DNA of 64,000 bases, taken from NCBI RefSeq assembly GCF_003258295.1, contig NZ_QKYN01000059.1, positions 1-64,000 of the forward strand. Reading direction: 5' to 3'. Shown one piece after another: positions 4,951 through 14,231 of this stretch (positions within the stretch are counted from its first letter, which is position 1; every line of letters starts with the position of its first letter). Under the pieces are notes generated by a model. The model had not been told where the DNA came from. It ran no database searches and saw nothing but the letters and a program-made list of their open reading frames with translations. Position numbers and translations under genes: made by a program. Source of the stretch: Streptacidiphilus pinicola (GTDB lineage Bacteria > Actinomycetota > Actinomycetes > Streptomycetales > Streptomycetaceae).

Positions 4951-6675
4951 TCAGGCCGGGATGCGGTGGAGGCGTTCCGGGGTGGCGTCCGGGCGGGACT
5001 TGTGGAGGAAGGCACGGCGGAGGGCGTGGTACGGGGAGCCAGGGCCGTAGAAGTTGCGGTGCATCAGGGCGAGTTCCTCCGCGCGGTACCAGGCGAGCGG
5101 TCGGCGGACCTCGGCGCGGCGGAGGGCGACGCGCTTCGCGGCGAGGCGGCGCGGCAGGTGTGGGTCCTCGGCCACCTCCTGGGCGAGTTCGGCCACGTGG
5201 TCGGGCACGTGCTCCGGCGGGCAGGCCAGGACGCGATCGACCAGGCCGAGGTCGAGCGCGCGCTGCGTGCCGATCGGCAGCGCGTCCGCGGTGAGCCGCC
5301 GCGCCGCCTCCCGGCCGACGCGGCGCGGGAGTGTGTAGGTCCAGAACTCCGAACCGTGCAGGCCCATCAGCCGGTAGTGCGGGTTCAGCACCGCGCCGCC
5401 GCGCACCCACACCTCGTCGGCGGCGAGCGCCAGCATCAGCCCGCCCGCGGCCGCGTTGCCGCCGAGCGCGGCGACGGTGAGCTTGTCACGGGTGGTCAGG
5501 ATCGCCTCGACGAGGTCGTCCATGGCGTTGATGTTGGCCCAGGACTCACGCGCGGGGTCGGCCGCGGCCTCGATCGCGCCGAGGTGGATCCCGTGGGAGA
5601 ACACGTCGCGGTGCGCGCCGAGCACCAGCAGCCGGGTCGGGCGGGCGGCCGCGTGGCGGTACGCGGCCAGGAGCCGGCGGCAGTCCGTGGTGCTCATCGC
5701 ACCGCCCGGGAAGGAGAACCGCAGCATCCCGACGCTGCCCTGCTCGTGGTAGCGGATCGTGGCCCAGGTCTGCCGCTTGTGGTGCGACCGCAGTGGCGCG
5801 GCGATCTCCGGCACCCCGTGCAGCAGGCCCGTCGGCGCGAGCACCGTCGCCGCCGGGGCCTTGGCCGTCGGCGGCCCGTCCGGCGCGCGGCGCGGGCGGG
5901 CCGCGCCGAGCCACACCGCGCCGTCGACCGTGGCGCGGCAGACGGCGCCGTCCCGCGTCGCGAGCAGAGTGCCCGGCACGCCGCGCAGTTCGTCCTCGGG
6001 CTGGCCGCCGTAGAGGTAGTACTCGCGGCCGTCGAGCGTGTCCAGCACGCCGGGACTGGAGTCGGCGGCGCGGAGCTTGCGGGCGACGGTGTCGGTCCCC
6101 TCCGCGGTCCAGTCGATCGCGCGCCGCTCCTGGCGGAAGTACGGCCGGGCCACCGTGGCCGCCGGGGCGGACCCCGGCACGAACCGGTGCGAGGCGAAAC
6201 GTTCCACCGCACGCCGGACCGCCGCTGACGCGGCGTCGGCCAGCTCGTTGCGGTACAGGTCGCTCTTGGCTATGCCGCCGGCCTCGGCGTGCTCGGGGAT
6301 GTCGAACGCCTCGGAGGCCCAGACCGGCCCCGCGTCCAGCTCGGCGACGGCCTGCAGCACCGTCACGCCCCAGCGGCGCCGACCCTCCGCCAGCGCCCAG
6401 TCCAGCGCGGACGGCCCGCGGTCCCCGGGCGGCCCGGGGTGCACGATCAGGCACGTGTACTGCGACCAGACGTCCTGCGGGACGCGGCTGGTGAGCATGG
6501 GCGCGACGATCAGCTCGGGTCTGTGTCTGTGGATCGCCTGCCGCAGTTCTTCGTCCCCTCTCGGACCGCCGCCGAGGTCGAGCGAGACGGCGATCCGGTG
6601 GCCCTGGTAGGCGAGTTCGACCGTGAGGCGCTGGGTCAGGCTGTTGAAGGCGCTGGCGTGCAGGAGGATGCGCAT
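4951..6675 (-). CDS. hoxX: HoxX-type hydrogenase maturation protein (formyltransferase-crotonase fusion)
   Basis: This 574-residue two-domain protein resembles HoxX. Residues about 1-270 are formyl-THF hydrolase/transferase-like, with HPGPPGDRGPSALDW at 79-93. Residues about 300-560 are an enoyl-CoA hydratase (crotonase) fold containing AALGGNAAAGGLMLALAADEV. In aerobic bacteria HoxX makes the active-site CO ligand of [NiFe]-hydrogenase from N10-formyl-THF through formyl-CoA. GGAGGG precedes the ATG at a good distance. No hyp or hydrogenase structural gene is present in this window, so any hydrogenase must be encoded elsewhere. Length and domain order match the family. Confidence 0.88.
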   Translation of the reverse strand: MRILLHASAFNSLTQRLTVELAYQGHRIAVSLDLGGGPRGDEELRQAIHRHRPELIVAPMLTSRVPQDVWSQYTCLIVHPGPPGDRGPSALDWALAEGRRRWGVTVLQAVAELDAGPVWASEAFDIPEHAEAGGIAKSDLYRNELADAASAAVRRAVERFASHRFVPGSAPAATVARPYFRQERRAIDWTAEGTDTVARKLRAADSSPGVLDTLDGREYYLYGGQPEDELRGVPGTLLATRDGAVCRATVDGAVWLGAARPRRAPDGPPTAKAPAATVLAPTGLLHGVPEIAAPLRSHHKRQTWATIRYHEQGSVGMLRFSFPGGAMSTTDCRRLLAAYRHAAARPTRLLVLGAHRDVFSHGIHLGAIEAAADPARESWANINAMDDLVEAILTTRDKLTVAALGGNAAAGGLMLALAADEVWVRGGAVLNPHYRLMGLHGSEFWTYTLPRRVGREAARRLTADALPIGTQRALDLGLVDRVLACPPEHVPDHVAELAQEVAEDPHLPRRLAAKRVALRRAEVRRPLAWYRAEELALMHRNFYGPGSPYHALRRAFLHKSRPDATPERLHRIPA

Positions 6676-6873: not shown

Positions 6874-7743
6874 TCAGGCCGTCGGGTACGGCTCCGGCTG
6901 GTAGCCACGGAGGAAACGCTCCGCGATCGCCGTGCTCCAGGGGAGGACCAGGTCGTAGAGACGGCGGGTGCGGGGCTCGCCCAGGGCGCGCCAGGGGGCG
7001 AGGGCGAGGCGGTCCGTCAGGTCCTCGATCTCCTCGCGGAGTTCGCGCCCGCGCAGGGTGAGGCCGCCGTCCTCGGTGAGCAGGTGGCGGTCGTGGAGGC
7101 GCTGCTCCGCGGCCTCCCACTCGGCGTCGGACCAGCCGCGCCGCGGCTGGATGGAGGAGCGGCGCTCGTGGCCGGTGGCGACCGCGTTGACCAGGACCTC
7201 GACCGCGTCCAGGCCGGAGGCCAGCAGCGCGGTGTTGTGGCCGTCGCCGCGCCACTCGCGCAGCGTGGTGACCGCCTGCCAGAGCTTGAGGTGGGGCGCC
7301 TCGGGGAGCGGCAGCGTGGCGTTGGCCGCGCCGAGGGGACGGCCGGCGGAGGTGCAGGCCGCCGCGGCCTCGGCGGCGAGCTCCGCCGCCTCGGCCATCT
7401 CGGCCGAGTCGAGGGCCTCCGCGCCGAGGGTGTCGCGCAGGGCCGCGTCCGCGGCGTCCAGGCGGACCGCGAGCAGCTTCTCGGGGACGCCCGCCGCGCG
7501 GACCTTCGCGGTGTTCGCCGCGACCATGCCGGGCTCGAAGTGGAAGAAGACAGCCTCCACCAGACCCTCGGAGGCCTCGCCCAGGGGCGCCGCGCGGCCG
7601 GCGAAGTACGCGCTCCAGGGGTCGAGCCCGAGGGAGCCGAAGACACCCACCGCGGCCGGGCTGAACACGAGCACCGCGTAGTAGGGGTCGAGGCCGTCGC
7701 GCATCGCGCGCGCGGCCCGCAGGTCGAACGGTCGAGTCGTCAT
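6874..7743 (-). CDS. SCO6745-family / SalK-like protein
   Basis: This 289-residue Ala-rich, mostly helical protein is of a type widely annotated in streptomycetes as the SCO6745 family. Family hallmarks are the N-terminal RDGLDPYYAVLVFSP and the core GDGHNTALLASGLDAVEV. A C-terminal winged-helix-like part (WEAAEQRLHDRHLLTEDGGLTLRGRELREEIE) gives a helix-turn-helix flavour. The biochemical function is not established. The gene is divergent from an MFS exporter and shares its 117-bp promoter region, so the two may be co-controlled. No signal peptide or membrane helix is evident. Confidence 0.8.
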   Translation of the reverse strand: MTTRPFDLRAARAMRDGLDPYYAVLVFSPAAVGVFGSLGLDPWSAYFAGRAAPLGEASEGLVEAVFFHFEPGMVAANTAKVRAAGVPEKLLAVRLDAADAALRDTLGAEALDSAEMAEAAELAAEAAAACTSAGRPLGAANATLPLPEAPHLKLWQAVTTLREWRGDGHNTALLASGLDAVEVLVNAVATGHERRSSIQPRRGWSDAEWEAAEQRLHDRHLLTEDGGLTLRGRELREEIEDLTDRLALAPWRALGEPRTRRLYDLVLPWSTAIAERFLRGYQPEPYPTA

Positions 7744-7860: not shown

Positions 7861-9450
7861 ATGAGCACCTCCCTGTCCGCGAGCGCCCCCGCGTCCACCG
7901 CGCGGCGCGGCAGCACGCCCCTGATCCTGGCCCTGGGCCTCGCGGCGATGGTCGTGTCGATGGCCCAGACCCAGGTCGTCCCGATCCTGTCGCTGCTCGC
8001 GCACGACCTGCACGCGAGCAGCTCCGGCGTGAGCTGGGTGACCACCGCCACCCTGCTCTCCGCCGCGGTCTTCACCCCGCTGCTGGGCCGCGTCGGCGAC
8101 CTCTACGGCAAGAAGCAGACGCTGATCGCCGTCCTCGCGGTCATGGTCGCGGGCTCGCTGCTCGCCGCCACCACGACCTCGCTGACCCTGCTGATCGTCG
8201 GCCGGGTGCTGCAGGGCTCCGCCACCGCGATCTTCCCGCTGGCCCTGTCGATCATTCGCGACCAGGTCGCCCACGAGAAGCTGCACGGCGCGATGGCGCT
8301 GGTCAGCAGCACCCTGGCGTTCGGCTCCGGCCTCTCGCTGGTGATCACCGGCCTGCTCACCCAGGGCTCGAACCCCAACTACCACTCGGTCTTCTGGGTC
8401 TCCACCGCGCTCTCGCTGCTGGCGCTCGTCGCCGTCGTCCTCCTGGTCCCCAACCGCGGCCACGCCGCGGGCGGCCGGATCGACTACCTCGGCACCCTGA
8501 CCATGGCCGGCTTCCTGGTCCTGCTGCTGCTCGGCATCTCCCAGGGTCACGACTGGGGCTGGGGCTCCGGCAAGACCCTCGGCTGCTTCGCCGGTGCCGT
8601 GGTCGTCGCGGTCGTCTGGGTGCTGGTCGAGCGCAAGGTCGCATCGCCGCTGGTGGACATGAAGATGTTCACCCACCGGCAGGTCGCCTTCACCAACCTC
8701 TCCGGGCTGTTCATCGGCTTCGCGTCGTTCGCGCAGTTCATCGGCATCTCCTACCTGGTCCAGATGCCCAAGATGCTGACCGGCTACGGCTTCACCGCCT
8801 CGGTGCTGCGCGCCTCCGTCGAGTACCTGCTGCCGAGCTCGCTGATCGCGCTGATCGCCGCTCCCGTCGGCGGCATCCTGGTCCGCCGGATCAGCGCCCG
8901 CCACACGCTGGCACTCGGCGCGGTCATCGGCGCGGCCGGCTTCGCCTGGCTGGCCTTCTCGCACGGCAACAGCCTCGGCGTGATCCTGGCCGGCCTGCTG
9001 ACCGGCACCTCGATCGCCTTCGGCTACGCCTCGATGCCCGCCCTGATCGCCGCCAGCGTTCCGCTCGAGCAGACCGGCATCGCCAACGGCATCAACTCGA
9101 TCTCCCGTTCGGTCGGCAGCTCGGTCGCCTCGGCGGTGGTCACCACGCTGCTGGCCTCCAAGCTGATCCACGGCCTGCCGGCCGGGGTCCCGCCGCTGCC
9201 GCAGCAGAGCCAGTTCACGCTGAGCTTCGTGATCGGCATGTGCGCCCTGCTGCTCACCGTCCCGGTCGCGCTGCTCGGCCTGACCCGCGCCCCCAAGGCG
9301 TCGTCCGCGCCGGTCGCCTCCGGTGGCGGCTCGGCCGCCGCCGAGCCGGTCCTGGACGAGCCGGTCCTGGCGGCCGAGGTCGTCGAGGCCGTCGAGGAGG
9401 CCGCGGAGGCGGAGGCGGCAGCCGTCGCCGAGCACTCGATCAAGAGCTGA
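7861..9450 (+). CDS. MFS drug-efflux transporter (DHA2-like)
   Basis: This 529-residue inner-membrane transporter has about 13-14 hydrophobic helices. The MFS motif A appears as GRVGDLYGKKQ between helices 2 and 3. The central helices contain the antiporter-like stretch LVSSTLAFGSGLSLVITGLL. The C-terminal 60 residues are Ala/Glu-rich, acidic and cytoplasmic. The family exports drugs or small metabolites by proton antiport, and the substrate is unknown here. The upstream promoter carries a dyad over its -10 box, so expression is probably repressed until an inducer appears. A strong hairpin follows the gene. Confidence 0.9.
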   Translation: MSTSLSASAPASTARRGSTPLILALGLAAMVVSMAQTQVVPILSLLAHDLHASSSGVSWVTTATLLSAAVFTPLLGRVGDLYGKKQTLIAVLAVMVAGSLLAATTTSLTLLIVGRVLQGSATAIFPLALSIIRDQVAHEKLHGAMALVSSTLAFGSGLSLVITGLLTQGSNPNYHSVFWVSTALSLLALVAVVLLVPNRGHAAGGRIDYLGTLTMAGFLVLLLLGISQGHDWGWGSGKTLGCFAGAVVVAVVWVLVERKVASPLVDMKMFTHRQVAFTNLSGLFIGFASFAQFIGISYLVQMPKMLTGYGFTASVLRASVEYLLPSSLIALIAAPVGGILVRRISARHTLALGAVIGAAGFAWLAFSHGNSLGVILAGLLTGTSIAFGYASMPALIAASVPLEQTGIANGINSISRSVGSSVASAVVTTLLASKLIHGLPAGVPPLPQQSQFTLSFVIGMCALLLTVPVALLGLTRAPKASSAPVASGGGSAAAEPVLDEPVLAAEVVEAVEEAAEAEAAAVAEHSIKS

Positions 9451-9471
9451 CGAAGAAGAACAGATCGCGTC

Positions 9472-9524
9472 CGAATGGCCCGTGCGGCCCCGAACTTCCA
9501 GGTCGGGGCCGCACGGGCCATTCG
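9472..9524. terminator. Strong terminator hairpin (22-bp perfect stem)
   Basis: A perfect 22-bp GC-rich stem (9472-9493 with 9503-9524) encloses a 9-nt loop and starts 22 bp after the stop of the MFS gene. There is no T-run. It is one of the strongest hairpins in the window. Confidence 0.85.
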
Positions 9525-9592
9525 CACGGCACATGAATGCTTGGTGATATGCCCACGCCATATCACCCCGCCTCTTACTTGGCGATCATCCG

Positions 9593-9991
9593 ATGAGTAG
9601 CCTCTCCCCCGTGCCATCAACCTCAGACGTCCCGGCCGCGGTCGGAAGCTTCGCGGCCATCTGGAGCCGCGCGCTCTTCCCGGTGACCCGGACCGATCTG
9701 ACGCGCGATCAGCTCACCGAGCTGCTCACTCCCATGGCCGGGCAGCTGCGCGACGCCCTGCACCAGGACCGGTTCGACCCGCGACCGGCCCGCGCGATAG
9801 GCAACCAGCTGGTCCGGGGTCACTCCGACGAACCGGACGCGCTGGCCCAGACGCTCGGGGTCATGGACGCCTATCTGCTGCTCTACTTCCCACCGCCCAA
9901 ACCGCTCTCCGGACCGATCGCCCGCGCCCGTTCGGCGCGCCTGCAGCACGCGGTGGCGGCCGGATTCGTGGAGGCATTGCGCGAAGCCTGA
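9593..9991 (+). CDS. Orphan N-terminal segment of an RmdA-like GGDEF/EAL protein
   Basis: This 132-residue protein resembles the N-terminal region that precedes the PAS-GGDEF-EAL domains in streptomycete bifunctional diguanylate cyclase/phosphodiesterases. Family-like stretches are FAAIWSRALFPVTRTDLTRD, AGQLRDALHQDRFDPRPARA and LGVMDAYLLLYF, ending in ARLQHAVAAGFVEALREA. In the full-length proteins this segment continues into PAS and GGDEF domains. Here a stop follows immediately, and no such domain is found downstream before sbcD. It may be a stand-alone regulatory partner or a truncated relic. Codon use is normal, which favours an expressed gene. Confidence 0.75.
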   Translation: MSSLSPVPSTSDVPAAVGSFAAIWSRALFPVTRTDLTRDQLTELLTPMAGQLRDALHQDRFDPRPARAIGNQLVRGHSDEPDALAQTLGVMDAYLLLYFPPPKPLSGPIARARSARLQHAVAAGFVEALREA

Positions 9992-10086
9992 ACGGGAGCC
10001 GGGCGGAAGCTGGGAGAAGCCTGAGCGGACAGATTGAACGGGGGGTTGCAATTCGCTGTCAGTGGCAGCGGTTACTGTCGTGAGCC

Positions 10087-11256
10087 ATGCGCTTCCTGCA
10101 CACCTCCGACTGGCATCTGGGCCGTTCGCTCCACCGCGAGAACCTGCTCCCGGCCCAACGCGCCTTTCTGCGGCACCTCGTGCAGACCGCGGCGGACGAG
10201 CGGGTCGACGCCGTGCTCGTCGCCGGGGACGTCTACGACCGCGCCGTGCCCAGCCTCGGGGCCGTGGAGCTGTTCGACGAGGCACTGCACGCGCTCGCCG
10301 AGCTCGCCGTCCCGGTCGTGCTGATCAGCGGCAACCACGACAGCGCGCAGCGGCTCGGGGTCGGCGCGGGGCTGGTCGCGCGCGCCGGGGTGCACCTGCG
10401 CACGGCGCCGGACCCGGCCGCCGTCGCGGAGCCGGTCGTCCTGGCGGACGCGGACGGGCCGGTCGCGGTCTACGGGCTGCCCTACCTGGAGCCCGCGCTG
10501 GTGCGGCAGCGGCTCGGCGCGCCGGAGGCGAGCCACACGGCCGTGCTGACCGCCGCGATGGACGCCGTCCGGGCGGATCTCGCGGAGCGGCGGGCGGACG
10601 GCGCGAGCGTGCGCTCGATCGTGCTCGCGCACGCCTTCGTCATCGGCGGCGAGGCCTGCGACAGCGAACGCGACATCGCGGTCGGCGGGGTGCCCAGCGT
10701 GCCGGCGTCGGTCTTCGAGGGCGTGGACTACGCCGCCCTCGGCCATCTGCACGGGTGTCAGACGATCAACGAGCGGGTCCGCTACAGCGGCTCGCCGCTC
10801 GCGTACTCCTTCTCCGAGGCCGACCACCGCAAGTCGATGTGGCTGGTCGAGCTGGGCCCGCAGGGCGAGTTGAGCGCCGAGCGGGTGGACTGCCCGGTGC
10901 CGCGCCGCCTCACCCGCATCCGCGGGGAGCTGGAGCGGCTGCTGACGGCGGACGAGTTCGACGCGGCCGAGGAGTGCTGGGTGCAGGTCACCCTGACGGA
11001 CGCGGCGCGTCCGCCGCAGGCCATGGAGCGGCTGCGGGTGCGGTTCCCGCACACGCTGCAGCTGGCCTTCGAGCCGCAGGGCCGCGAGGACGACGGCCTG
11101 AGCAGCTACGGCGAGCGGGTCCGCGGGCGGGACGACGGCGCGGTGGCGCTCGGCTTCGTCCGGCACGTGCGCGGGGCGGCGGCCACCCAGGCGGAGTCGA
11201 CGCTGCTGGTCGCGGCGGTGGAGGCGGCGGCGCGCGCCGCGGGCGGGGAGATCTGA
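10087..11256 (+). CDS. sbcD: Nuclease SbcCD subunit D (exonuclease SbcD)
   Basis: This 389-residue Mre11-family phosphodiesterase acts with SbcC on DNA hairpins and blocked ends. The metal-binding motifs are in order: SDWHLG at 7-12, GDVYDR at 47-52, GNHDS at 82-86, then LAHAF and a GHLH motif (ALGHLHG). A TACTGT hexamer 8 nt before the ATG and the lack of a clear Shine-Dalgarno sequence suggest a near-leaderless transcript. Its TGA shares one base with the ATG of sbcC (TGATG), so the two subunits are translationally coupled. Length matches the family. Confidence 0.95.
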   Translation: MRFLHTSDWHLGRSLHRENLLPAQRAFLRHLVQTAADERVDAVLVAGDVYDRAVPSLGAVELFDEALHALAELAVPVVLISGNHDSAQRLGVGAGLVARAGVHLRTAPDPAAVAEPVVLADADGPVAVYGLPYLEPALVRQRLGAPEASHTAVLTAAMDAVRADLAERRADGASVRSIVLAHAFVIGGEACDSERDIAVGGVPSVPASVFEGVDYAALGHLHGCQTINERVRYSGSPLAYSFSEADHRKSMWLVELGPQGELSAERVDCPVPRRLTRIRGELERLLTADEFDAAEECWVQVTLTDAARPPQAMERLRVRFPHTLQLAFEPQGREDDGLSSYGERVRGRDDGAVALGFVRHVRGAAATQAESTLLVAAVEAAARAAGGEI

Positions 11257-14231
11257 TGCGGCTGCACAAGCTGACCGTCACGGCCTTCGGCCCGTTCCGC
11301 GACCGGGAGCGCGTCGACTTCGACGCGCTCGCCTCCGGCGGTCTCTTCCTGCTCACCGGGCCGACGGGCGCGGGCAAGACCAGCGTCCTGGACGCCGTCT
11401 GCTTCGCGCTCTACGGCTCGGTGCCGGGCAGCCGCGGCCGGGCCGGACGCGGGCTGCGCAGCGACCACGCGGACGCGTCCGTGCTGACCAGGGTGGAGTT
11501 GGAGCTCACCCTCGGGGGCCGCCGGCTGCTGGTCCAGCGCAGCCCCGAGCAGCTGCGCCCCAAGCAGCGCGGGGCGGGCCTGACCCCCGTCAAGGCGCAG
11601 ACGCTGCTGAGCGAGTGGTCGGCCGAGGACGACGCCTGGCGGCCGCGCAGCGGCTCGCACCAGGAGATCGGCCAGGAGCTGCTCGATCTCGTCGGCATGA
11701 GCCGGGACCAGTTCACCCAGGTCGTGCTGCTCCCCCAGGGCGATTTCGCCCGCTTCCTGCAGTCCGGCGCGCAGGAGCGCCGCGAGCTGCTGGGCCGGCT
11801 GTTCGACACCCGCCGCTTCGGGGACGTCGAGGCGTGGCTGGCCGAACACCGGCAGCGCTGCGAGAAGGAGACGCAGTCGGTCCGCGCCGACATCGCCGCG
11901 TCGGTGGAGCGCCTGCACGAGGCGGCCGGGGCCCCGGATCTCCCCACCCCCGAGCCGGAGACGCCGGCTGACGCCGTGTCGGCCTGGGCCGCGGCCCTGC
12001 GGGAGCAGGCCGTGCTGCGGCACGAGGTCACCGTGGTGCGGTACGGGCTCGTCAGCGAGCGGCGCGCGGCCCTCCAGTCCCGCCTCCGCGCGGTGGAGGC
12101 CCTCTCCGCCCGGCAGGAGGAACACCGCCACGCCGTCGAGGCCCTCGCCCGCCTGGCGGCGGCCGAACCCGAGCAGCGGGACCGCGAGTCCCGCCTCAAG
12201 CGCGCCGACCACGCCGCCTCGGTCGCCCCGGTGCTGCGCCAGTACGCGGAGGCGAGCCACGACGCGTCCCGCGCGGCGTCCGAACGCGAGCACGCGTTGG
12301 CGGCACTGGGTGGGCCGCCACTGGACGCCGAGGCGCTGCGCGCCGCCGAGCGGGAGGCGCTGGGGGCGGTGGGCGAGTTGCGCGCGCTGGTGGAGGCTGA
12401 GCGGCGGTTCGAGGTTGCCGGGGAGGAGGCCGCGCGGGCGGAGCGCCGGTTCGGGGCGGCCGAGGAGGCGCGGGAGGAGGCCGCCGCGTGGCTGGCCGAC
12501 TGGCCCGGGGTGAGGGCCGAGGCACAGCAGGCCGTGGACGCGGCGCGGGACGTCGCCGCGAAGCGGGAGGGGCTGGACGAGAAGCTGCACGCGGCCGAGG
12601 AGCGGGCCGACGCCGCCGCGCGGCGGGACGCGTTGCGTGCGCGGCACGAGGAGGCGCAGGAGCGCCATCTGGCGCTGCGTACCCGCGCCGCCGAGGCGCA
12701 GGAGAGATGGCTCGACCTCAAGCAGCGCCGGATCGAGGGCATGGCCGCCGAGTTGGCGGCGTGGCTGCGGCCCGGCACCGCCTGCGAGGTCTGTGGCGCG
12801 ACGGAGCACCCCGCCCCGGCCGTCGCCGCGCCGGACCAGGTGACGCCGGACCAGGAACGGGTGGCCGAGCAGGCGTTCCGTGCGATCGAACGTCAGGTCG
12901 CGGACGCGGGCGCCGAACTCGCCCGGCTCGCCACCGAGTCCTCCGCCGCCGAGGCGCGCGCGGGCGTCGGCTCCCGGGCCGAGCTGCTCGCCGAGGCGGC
13001 AGGCCTGCGCGCCGAGCGTGAGACGGCCGAGCGTGCCGAGGCCGCCGCGTTGGACGCCGCCCAGCGGCTGGACCGGCTGGAGCGGGAGCACGAGCGGCGC
13101 GGGCAGCAACTCGCCGCGGCGCAGACGGCCGCCGCGACGGCGGAGGAGGTGCTGGTGCGGCTCGCCGCCGAGCGCGCCGAGTTGGACTCCCGGTTGGCCC
13201 GGGCCCGCGCGGGAGCACCCTCGATCGCGGCGCGCATCGCGCAGCTGGAGCGGGAGGCGGGCGCGCTGGGCCGGGCCGCCGACGCGGTGCGGGCCTCGGC
13301 GGCTGCCACGCGCGCGGCGGAGGCGGCGCGGACCACCGCCGAGCGCGAGTGCGCGGCGGCCGGCTTCGCCGATCCGGCCGAGGCGCACGAGGCCGCGCTC
13401 TCCCCCGCGCAGACGCAGGCGCTGCGGGCCACGGTGGAGGCCCACGCCGCGCGCCTGGCCCGCGCCCGCGAGCAGGTGGGCGACCCGGAGCTCACGGCGG
13501 CGGCCGCGCTCCCCGCCGCGGACGTCGCGGCGGCACGCGCCGCCGACCGGGCGGCCGAGCGCACCCTGCTGGACGCCCACGCCGCGGAGCGCGGTGCCTC
13601 GGCGCGTCTCGCCGACCTCGCCCGCCTCGGCGCACGCCTGGCGGACGACCTCCGGCGCCTGCGTCCGTACGCGGTCGAGCTGGCCACGGCGACGGAGCTG
13701 TCGCAGCTCGTCGCCGGCACCAGCAAGAGCAACGAGCTGCGCATGTCGCTGGAGAACTACGTGCTCGCCGCCCGCCTGGAGCAGGTCGCGGCCGCGGCGG
13801 GCGCCCGGCTGCGGATCATGTCGGGCGGCCGCTACACGCTGGAGCACACCGACGCCCGGGTCCGCGGCAACGCCCGCTCGGGTCTTGGCCTCCAGGTGCT
13901 GGACGCCTGGACCGGCCAGTACCGCGACACCTCCACCCTCTCGGGCGGCGAGAGCTTCTTCGCCTCCCTCGCGCTGGCCCTCGGCCTCGCGGACGTCGTC
14001 ACGGACGAGGCGGGCGGCATGCCACTGGACACCCTCTTCATCGACGAGGGCTTCGGCGCGCTCGACCCGGACACCCTGGAGGAGGTCATGTCCGTGCTGG
14101 ACTCGCTGCGCGAGCGGGACCGCGCGGTCGGCATCGTGAGCCACGTCGCGGAGCTGCGGGACCGCATCCCGCAGCAGCTGGCGGTCCGCAAGGCCCGTTC
14201 AGGCTCGACGCTGAGCCAGGAGCAGGCCTAG
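11256..14231 (+). CDS. sbcC: Nuclease SbcCD subunit C (ATPase SbcC)
   Basis: This 991-residue SMC-like ATPase partners SbcD. The Walker A motif is GPTGAGKTS at 35-43. A very long Ala/Arg/Glu-rich coiled coil follows, with a zinc-hook Cys-X-X-Cys at 510-513 (CEVC) at its apex. The ABC signature LSGGES is at 895-900 and the Walker B IDEGFG has D930-E931. The frame is open far upstream, but the true ATG overlaps the sbcD stop and begins with the family-typical MRLHKLTVTAFGPF. The two genes form one operon for double-strand-end processing. No gene of other function is included. Confidence 0.95.
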   Translation: MRLHKLTVTAFGPFRDRERVDFDALASGGLFLLTGPTGAGKTSVLDAVCFALYGSVPGSRGRAGRGLRSDHADASVLTRVELELTLGGRRLLVQRSPEQLRPKQRGAGLTPVKAQTLLSEWSAEDDAWRPRSGSHQEIGQELLDLVGMSRDQFTQVVLLPQGDFARFLQSGAQERRELLGRLFDTRRFGDVEAWLAEHRQRCEKETQSVRADIAASVERLHEAAGAPDLPTPEPETPADAVSAWAAALREQAVLRHEVTVVRYGLVSERRAALQSRLRAVEALSARQEEHRHAVEALARLAAAEPEQRDRESRLKRADHAASVAPVLRQYAEASHDASRAASEREHALAALGGPPLDAEALRAAEREALGAVGELRALVEAERRFEVAGEEAARAERRFGAAEEAREEAAAWLADWPGVRAEAQQAVDAARDVAAKREGLDEKLHAAEERADAAARRDALRARHEEAQERHLALRTRAAEAQERWLDLKQRRIEGMAAELAAWLRPGTACEVCGATEHPAPAVAAPDQVTPDQERVAEQAFRAIERQVADAGAELARLATESSAAEARAGVGSRAELLAEAAGLRAERETAERAEAAALDAAQRLDRLEREHERRGQQLAAAQTAAATAEEVLVRLAAERAELDSRLARARAGAPSIAARIAQLEREAGALGRAADAVRASAAATRAAEAARTTAERECAAAGFADPAEAHEAALSPAQTQALRATVEAHAARLARAREQVGDPELTAAAALPAADVAAARAADRAAERTLLDAHAAERGASARLADLARLGARLADDLRRLRPYAVELATATELSQLVAGTSKSNELRMSLENYVLAARLEQVAAAAGARLRIMSGGRYTLEHTDARVRGNARSGLGLQVLDAWTGQYRDTSTLSGGESFFASLALALGLADVVTDEAGGMPLDTLFIDEGFGALDPDTLEEVMSVLDSLRERDRAVGIVSHVAELRDRIPQQLAVRKARSGSTLSQEQA

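Follow-up and report, generated by a model that had tools for sequence, protein, structure and literature searches.

The window, meaning the whole stretch analyzed, covers 64,000 nucleotides of a Streptacidiphilus pinicola contig (NZ_QKYN01000059.1, positions 1 to 64,000). The feature under study is an open reading frame (ORF), here called SA because it is a stand-alone N-terminal domain, that sits between a gene for an efflux-type MFS transporter and sbcD, and the coordinates of these and of the smaller features around them are collected in Table 1. SA has no match to any Pfam family at E values up to 10 and none in NCBIfam, and a sequence search of the Protein Data Bank (PDB) gave nothing meaningful, with a best E = 0.21. 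The order MFS-SA-sbcD is the same in all 7 of the genomes that have SA. RNA folding of positions 9450-9560, at the end of the MFS gene, gives −60.9 kcal/mol with z = −5.9 against 200 shuffles, and the long hairpin found there probably closes the MFS unit, as a possible terminator that separates MFS from SA, although a scan for terminators did not pick it up. A palindrome between that hairpin and SA, GGTGATATG-N7-CATATCACC at 9543-9567, is perfect in this genome, and it was rejected as a candidate signal after being found absent from G004 and G009 and altered in the others.

Table 1. Features of the SA locus in the window
Feature	Position	Strand	Description and basis
MFS efflux-type transporter, upstream neighbor	7861..9450	+	Pfam MFS_1, E = 5.3 × 10−47
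Long hairpin after the MFS gene	9468..9528	+	61 nt, no T-run; fold of the region
Putative −35, TTACTT	9575..9580	+	Its first 5 bases do not vary among the 7 genomes
SA, stand-alone N-terminal domain ORF	9593..9991	+	ATG start, 132 aa, stop included
Putative −10, TAGCCT	9598..9603	+	17 bases after the −35, 7 before GTG 9611; lies in invariant run 9592-9613
More likely SA coding sequence	9611..9991	+	GTG start, 126 aa; invariance, model, RmdA length
Predicted five-helix domain	9629..9985	+	Residues 13-131; AlphaFold2 model
RecA-NDp-like sbcD promoter	10056..10078	+	CTGTCAGTGGC-N6-TACTGT, 1 mismatch
sbcD, downstream neighbor	10087..11256	+	95 bp after the SA stop; NCBIfam TIGR00619, E = 1.5 × 10−55
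sbcC, start approximate	11256..14231	+	Pfam AAA_23 and SbcC_Walker_B; TIGR00618, E = 4.3 × 10−70, below its cut-off

A sequence-only reading of this DNA had matched the protein to the segment preceding PAS-GGDEF-EAL in streptomycete phosphodiesterases, and the matches bear this out. Genome contigs, with one genome for each of 84,980 species, contain at least 69 loci related to SA, and the frames of all 69 were read. Long frames account for 65 of these at least 69 loci, with titles of Streptomyces except for one Streptomycetaceae bacterium and one Actinobacteria bacterium. They extend 549 to 626 amino acids beyond the SA match (one of them, L010, has masked bases in this tail), and in all 65 the N-terminus is 47% to 58% identical to SA, mostly over query residues 20 to 131. 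Three long proteins were tested with Pfam, namely L014 from the set of 65, the protein of G015 from another genus of the family, and the RmdA-like enzyme of S. pinicola itself, and all 3 have PAS, GGDEF, and EAL after the domain. RmdA is a widespread developmental phosphodiesterase of Streptomyces. We call the family RmdA-type because the length and the position of EAL agree, and not from a comparison with SCO0928 itself. By hand count, 4 Streptomyces loci are 712 to 714 aa long from the codon aligned with GTG 9611 of SA, and of the 64 loci in which an EAL motif could be located, 63 have 224 to 229 residues after its E. The values for Streptomyces ghanaensis RmdA, in the part of PMC7911125 available to us, are a length of 714 aa and position 485 for the catalytic E, hence 229 residues after it.

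Judged by its sequence, SA derives from the RmdA-type family, yet it is no RmdA-type enzyme. The ORF stops after the N-terminal domain, so the absence of enzymatic domains claimed earlier holds, and with PAS, GGDEF, and EAL all lacking, SA should neither make nor cut c-di-GMP. A sequencing frameshift that hides a longer frame, or read-through into one, would have undercut this reading. The same 132-aa frame ends at the same stop codon in all 7 genomes, and nothing PAS-like occurs in the 3 forward frames from that stop to sbcD, nor is any PAS-like residue visible in the 81- to 158-bp gap before sbcD across the genomes, so both ideas were dropped, as was the concern that the short form might not be conserved. 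In G007 and G008, some tblastn alignments extended beyond the stop, over residues that are unrelated.

A frame end at the length of SA is seen in 4 of the at least 69 loci, those of Streptacidiphilus anmyonensis, melanogenes, neutrinimicus, and fuscans, where identity to SA is 86% to 96%. Stand-alone homologs, proposed earlier as something to search for, therefore exist, and SA is present in 7 of 14 Streptacidiphilus genomes (G000, G002, G004, G006, G007, G008, and G009), a count that includes the window's own genome, G000, and the 4 named species. These 7 are all the genomes from which the stand-alone form is known, and the other copies are 79% to 97% identical to that of the window. A profile of the N-terminal domain matches 371 of 394 genomes in a family survey, 41 of 49 and 80 of 80 in further surveys, and 74 of 394 in a class-wide survey. 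Among the matches listed with their frames, which for the family survey are the best rows, none outside the genus is a stand-alone form, and every match spanning the greater part of the domain has a frame of at least 401 aa; about 17 strong-match genomes (hand count) and most of genus g14 fall outside this listing. The 344-aa frame of G141 contains a weak piece of 23 residues of the domain. The same domain also occurs in frames of 430 to 490 aa in another family of the class (for example, G720, G494, and G678), where its partner may be another kind of output domain or just one such domain. A mobile origin of SA was considered and rejected: phages have no match to SA, and the one plasmid match is in a 1.6-Mb Streptomyces record, with a full-length frame of 906 aa. 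Three weak matches were also set aside. In the genome of S. pinicola, the frame at C65 is a BTAD/LuxR-like regulator as judged from its translation, and the one at C106 is unconvincing; the weak second match of G007, at C100, has no RmdA or domain match on the stretch inspected.

Where SA begins is of interest because the first codons behave unlike the rest. A run of 22 bases at 9592-9613 is invariant in the 7 genomes and terminates exactly at GTG 9611, so that codons 1-7 are invariant at 21 of 21 bases. Third positions are invariant in 7 of 7 of these codons versus 44 of 125 later ones, giving p of about 0.0007 at the later rate. AlphaFold puts residues 1-6 at a pLDDT below 50. For these 2 reasons, the invariance of codons 1-7 and the low confidence of residues 1-6, GTG 9611 is the likelier start, and it also falls within one residue of the start of the Streptomyces RmdA-type proteins if these are 712 to 714 aa long, again by hand count. 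The first 6 codons of the ATG frame are then probably promoter rather than protein. They contain TAGCCT, which we take to be a −10 of the Streptomyces type, at a spacing from the candidate −35 that would fit, and no Shine-Dalgarno sequence was seen before either ATG 9593 or GTG 9611. SA is probably transcribed from its own promoter as a leaderless mRNA that would start at GTG 9611. A generic scan for consensus promoters and terminators found neither for SA, so it is conservation that carries the promoter claim. A TTGAC near the putative promoter is not conserved among the 7 genomes.

The domains of long and short proteins fall into 2 types in a tree of 58 N-terminal domains, and the split has support of 100/100. 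Type B consists of full-length Streptacidiphilus proteins together with one of genus g14 and one from Streptomyces (G103). SA, represented by 6 of its 7 copies, groups with the Streptomyces type and G015 at 99/97. This tree does not include the type-B domains of G002 and G008; 4 duplicates were skipped, and 6 type-B rows were trimmed by hand.

The AlphaFold2 model of SA (mf6c2c11374a9), made from 84 related rows, has a mean pLDDT of 89.8 and a pTM score of 0.84, with helices at residues 13-31, 38-56, 64-75, 81-98, and 107-131. Foldseek finds weak matches, mostly to globins, with a best E = 0.11. Realignment of the model gives the top score to the N-terminal domain of RsbR (2bnl), at Z = 9.9 over 112 residues and 3.8 Å, on a scale where helical bundles can reach about 13 by their arrangement. 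This is followed by the stressosome domain 3zta (Z = 9.3, 111 residues, 3.2 Å), the photocobilin 8j2x (Z = 9.1), and pXO1-118 (3pmd; Z = 8.5, 119 residues), and after these 4 come heme globin sensors, phycobiliproteins, and others; the N-terminal domain of MabR (9fb1) scores Z = 6.8. These scores suggest a nonheme globin fold for SA as likely but do not prove it, because helical proteins can score up to about 13 through a common arrangement of their helices. The Pfam family RsbRD_N has no match in SA and matches 1 of the 84 alignment members, weakly (E = 0.032). No stressosome sensor was found in the S. pinicola genome by an RsbRD_N match, where the control matched in 2 of the 14 genomes.

An alignment (A2) of 83 of 88 candidate rows plus the window's SA shows what has been kept. 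Fifty-one positions are conserved in at least 85% of the 65 type-A rows, and SA, with 4 copies compared, differs at 8 of them, including R19, C78, T79, and C99. Both conserved cysteines are changed (C78S and C99F), as is T79 (T79D). Most conserved positions are kept, with W24, G70, H77, L84, Q118, and G124 among them, and H77 is conserved across the N-domain family. Since 8 normally conserved positions differ, SA may have changed its function.

The sequence-only reading offered SA as a decoy or partner of a full-length homolog. As we would phrase it, SA would pair with the resident RmdA-like enzyme or compete with it for a signal, and so tune c-di-GMP and sporulation. Such an enzyme is indeed kept at full length in 6 of the 7 SA genomes, the model of its N-terminal domain from S. 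pinicola has 5 helices in the same layout as SA, and plasmid-borne SkiA, proposed to act on the kinase BA2291, is a precedent with a similar fold. However, the resident enzymes (L116 at G000:C84, with relatives L117-L128) have a shortened and diverged domain of type B, which sits on the other branch of the tree, and 7 type-B rows from other genomes are only 25% to 35% identical to SA. The best PDB alignments of the type-B model, among 275 chains, are to spidroin N-terminal domains at Z = 6.5, with MabR and globin rows of the same 275 at Z of 4.5 or less. Globin sensors are thus not at the top of that search, and so the case for a fold shared with SA is made by homology and helix layout.

The genome content bears on the same question. 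The N-domain profile gives one match per SA genome at E ≤ 10−4, and in 7 of 7 genomes that match bears the E value of SA; a broader profile also finds the type-B enzyme of S. pinicola, at 4.6 × 10−8. A cognate enzyme with the sensor type of SA was found in the same genome in none of the 7. G009 keeps SA, and no RmdA-type enzyme was found in this genome, which is 100% complete in 4 contigs; its best RmdA match, at 47%, spans residues 105-675 of 681 and is without the N-terminal domain. The regions of G009 and G013 that were first inspected likewise held no RmdA-type enzyme. Because of the single profile match per genome and because of G009, we favor a target other than RmdA for SA. These results weaken the decoy or partner idea, which we regard as unlikely. 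Separately, G336 has 2 long frames with the domain, one a strong match and one weak, and because of this pair, some Streptomyces may have 2 RmdA-like families that are paralogs of each other.

As for how SA came to be at this place, G015 has a complete type-A rmdA, with an open frame of 738 aa, that is oriented like sbcD and lies about 170 bp upstream of it. Among 31 sbcD loci with about 1.5 kb of flank, a match like rmdA near sbcD occurs only in G015 and at the 7 SA loci. In the genus genomes that are without SA, MFS adjoins sbcD in 4 of 7 (G001, G011, G012, and G013), and the distance between them is about 3 kb in the other 3 (G003, G005, and G010). The sbcD tree, from which the split sbcD of G013 is left out, makes the SA genomes one group at 100/100 and does not place G015. 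Because G015 has the full-length gene directly upstream of sbcD, the most likely origin of SA is a loss of PAS, GGDEF, and EAL at this very site, where the full-length ancestral state is represented by one genome, G015, whose MFS side differs. The simplest history from synteny and trees would have an ancestor with type-A rmdA before sbcD, one clade in which the 3 domains were lost in place to leave a clean one-domain gene, and other clades in which the whole rmdA gene before sbcD was lost. A different history would bring rmdA in by transfer from Streptomyces, with truncation on or after arrival. It would account for why SA is nearer to the Streptomyces domains, at the 47% to 58% given above, than to type B, the kind present in the full-length enzymes of its own genus. 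But SA falls outside the Streptomyces group in the tree, although the branch joining that group with related genera has support of only 96/74, and the type-A gene at the same place in G015 also speaks against it, so we consider transfer improbable.

The position directly before sbcD in every SA genome might instead mean that SA belongs functionally with SbcCD, as a small coexpressed factor or a sensor for DNA repair. Several observations make this a still poorer prospect. The adjacency is already explained by the position of rmdA in G015, the gap between SA and sbcD is neither of constant length nor of constant sequence, and the 7 other genomes of the genus have matches to sbcD and sbcC but no SA. 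Furthermore, sbcD has its own start signal, because it is preceded by a promoter motif that we presume to be RecA-NDp/PafBC-like. At 1 mismatch this motif has 1 match in the window and 0 in 100 shuffles, and its core is at −30 of sbcD in 7 of 7 SA genomes and in G015. In the other 7 Streptacidiphilus and in 3 further genera, the core occurs at most 150 bp upstream of sbcD. DNA damage may thus induce SbcCD by way of PafBC; the role of the RecA-NDp promoter motif is as given in those parts of PMC8223512 and PMC6789036 that we could draw on. A second sbcD, 58% identical, is present in G004 (L230, at G004:C22:26214-27365), an assembly with 10% contamination.

Selection on SA was measured over the 21 pairs of the 7 genomes by the NG86 method. 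SA is under purifying selection, like sbcD, with dN/dS of 0.02 to 0.29 at dS of 0.17 to 0.63, where the neighbors have 0.07 to 0.25 (sbcD) and 0.22 to 0.39 (MFS). The 7 copies align without gaps, with no indel and no internal stop, and the lack of selective constraint that marks a pseudogene is not what these values show. Over the matched pieces, SA is 95% to 97% identical to the 4 nearest genomes and so more conserved than its neighbors, with sbcD at 86% to 89% and MFS at 92% to 93%; in the gapless alignment, SA is 95% to 96% identical to these 4 and 79% to 86% identical to the 2 outer ones. For G009 the order is narrowly reversed, with 79.4% for SA and 81.0% for sbcD. In the resident enzyme, the N-terminal region with its flanks is 55% to 75% identical between G000 and 5 other SA genomes, so this counterpart is less well conserved than SA. 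The suggestion that SA is a truncated gene kept by chance was right as to a truncated origin, and it fits with a form seen in one clade only and with a GC3 of 0.85 against 0.96 to 0.98 in the neighbors, but these dN/dS values, the tighter conservation than in the enzyme, and the unbroken copies with their invariant start region leave the chance part untenable and a mere relic very improbable.

Our preferred reading, to which we give a probability of roughly 0.6, is that SA is a remnant of rmdA that is under selection, has its own promoter, and most likely functions in trans, as a small sensor or adaptor that would form dimers. The 5-helix bundle would resemble the nonheme globin sensors of stressosome proteins, the fold family that the model suggests, and the last 2 helices would form the dimer. 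Working in trans, SA would bind the ligand or protein partner that the domain bound in RmdA, and by this binding would control or titrate the partner without touching c-di-GMP. The best reading of SA is a free-standing sensor or dimerization protein whose target would be something else than its former catalytic domains. More tentatively, and as something possible that we would not call probable, the N-terminal domain of RmdA may have a job independent of the enzyme, with SA the globin-like sensor that this Streptacidiphilus clade kept on giving up the enzyme, as a one-domain regulator that connects a cell signal to a developmental target. The signal might be a lipid, heme or a gas, redox state, or a protein partner, and SA would act even where no RmdA-type enzyme is left.

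Known systems give some guidance. RmdA (SCO0928, vnz33675) is the Streptomyces phosphodiesterase whose family build starts with the segment homologous to SA, and unlike it, SA is without PAS, GGDEF, and EAL. In the available parts of PMC6205966 and PMC7911125, RmdA is described as PAS-PAC-GGDEF-EAL and the N-terminal segment is not named, and PMC6205966 states there that the signal sensed by the N-terminal signaling domains is not known. The present results suggest that RmdA carries a second sensor before PAS, with a predicted fold similar to stressosome sensors. Other close parallels to SA are SkiA (pXO2-61) and pXO1-118 of Bacillus anthracis, which are likewise single sensor domains without an enzyme, the likeness of pXO1-118 being one of predicted fold. 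As far as the accessible text of PMC5862856 and PMC8407390 goes, both resemble the sensor of kinase BA2291, and overexpression of SkiA lowers sporulation, an effect that is suppressed by loss of BA2291. They differ from SA in being plasmid-borne, where SA is chromosomal and seemingly arose in place, and in that the SkiA effect needs BA2291, where the searches turned up no enzyme carrying this type of domain in the genome of SA. The N-terminal domains of RsbR and its stressosome relatives gave the top structural alignments, and SA differs in having neither a STAS domain nor an RsbRD_N match. MabR (Rv2242, of the PucR family) is an actinobacterial case with a globin-like domain before a GGDEF-like domain, according to the part of PMC11617747 at hand; its downstream domains differ from those of the SA family, and the likeness to SA is one of predicted fold. 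A literature search on c-di-GMP in Streptacidiphilus found, judging by title, nothing on the subject of SA, and none was found on stand-alone globin sensor domains in bacteria under that description.

SA is of value as a natural isolate of the unstudied sensor of RmdA, under selection without the enzyme, so that a small protein now allows direct tests of what the sensor binds, whether ligand or partner. As an example of a signaling enzyme cut down to its sensor where it stood, SA is likewise a clear candidate. Elsewhere in the window, the reverse strand at 4951-6675 encodes a protein of 574 aa in which Pfam finds N- and C-terminal formyltransferase domains joined to an enoyl-CoA hydratase domain, an architecture that we take to be that of the hydrogenase maturation factor HypX, and a gene of the HTH_67 family adjoins it at 6874-7743.
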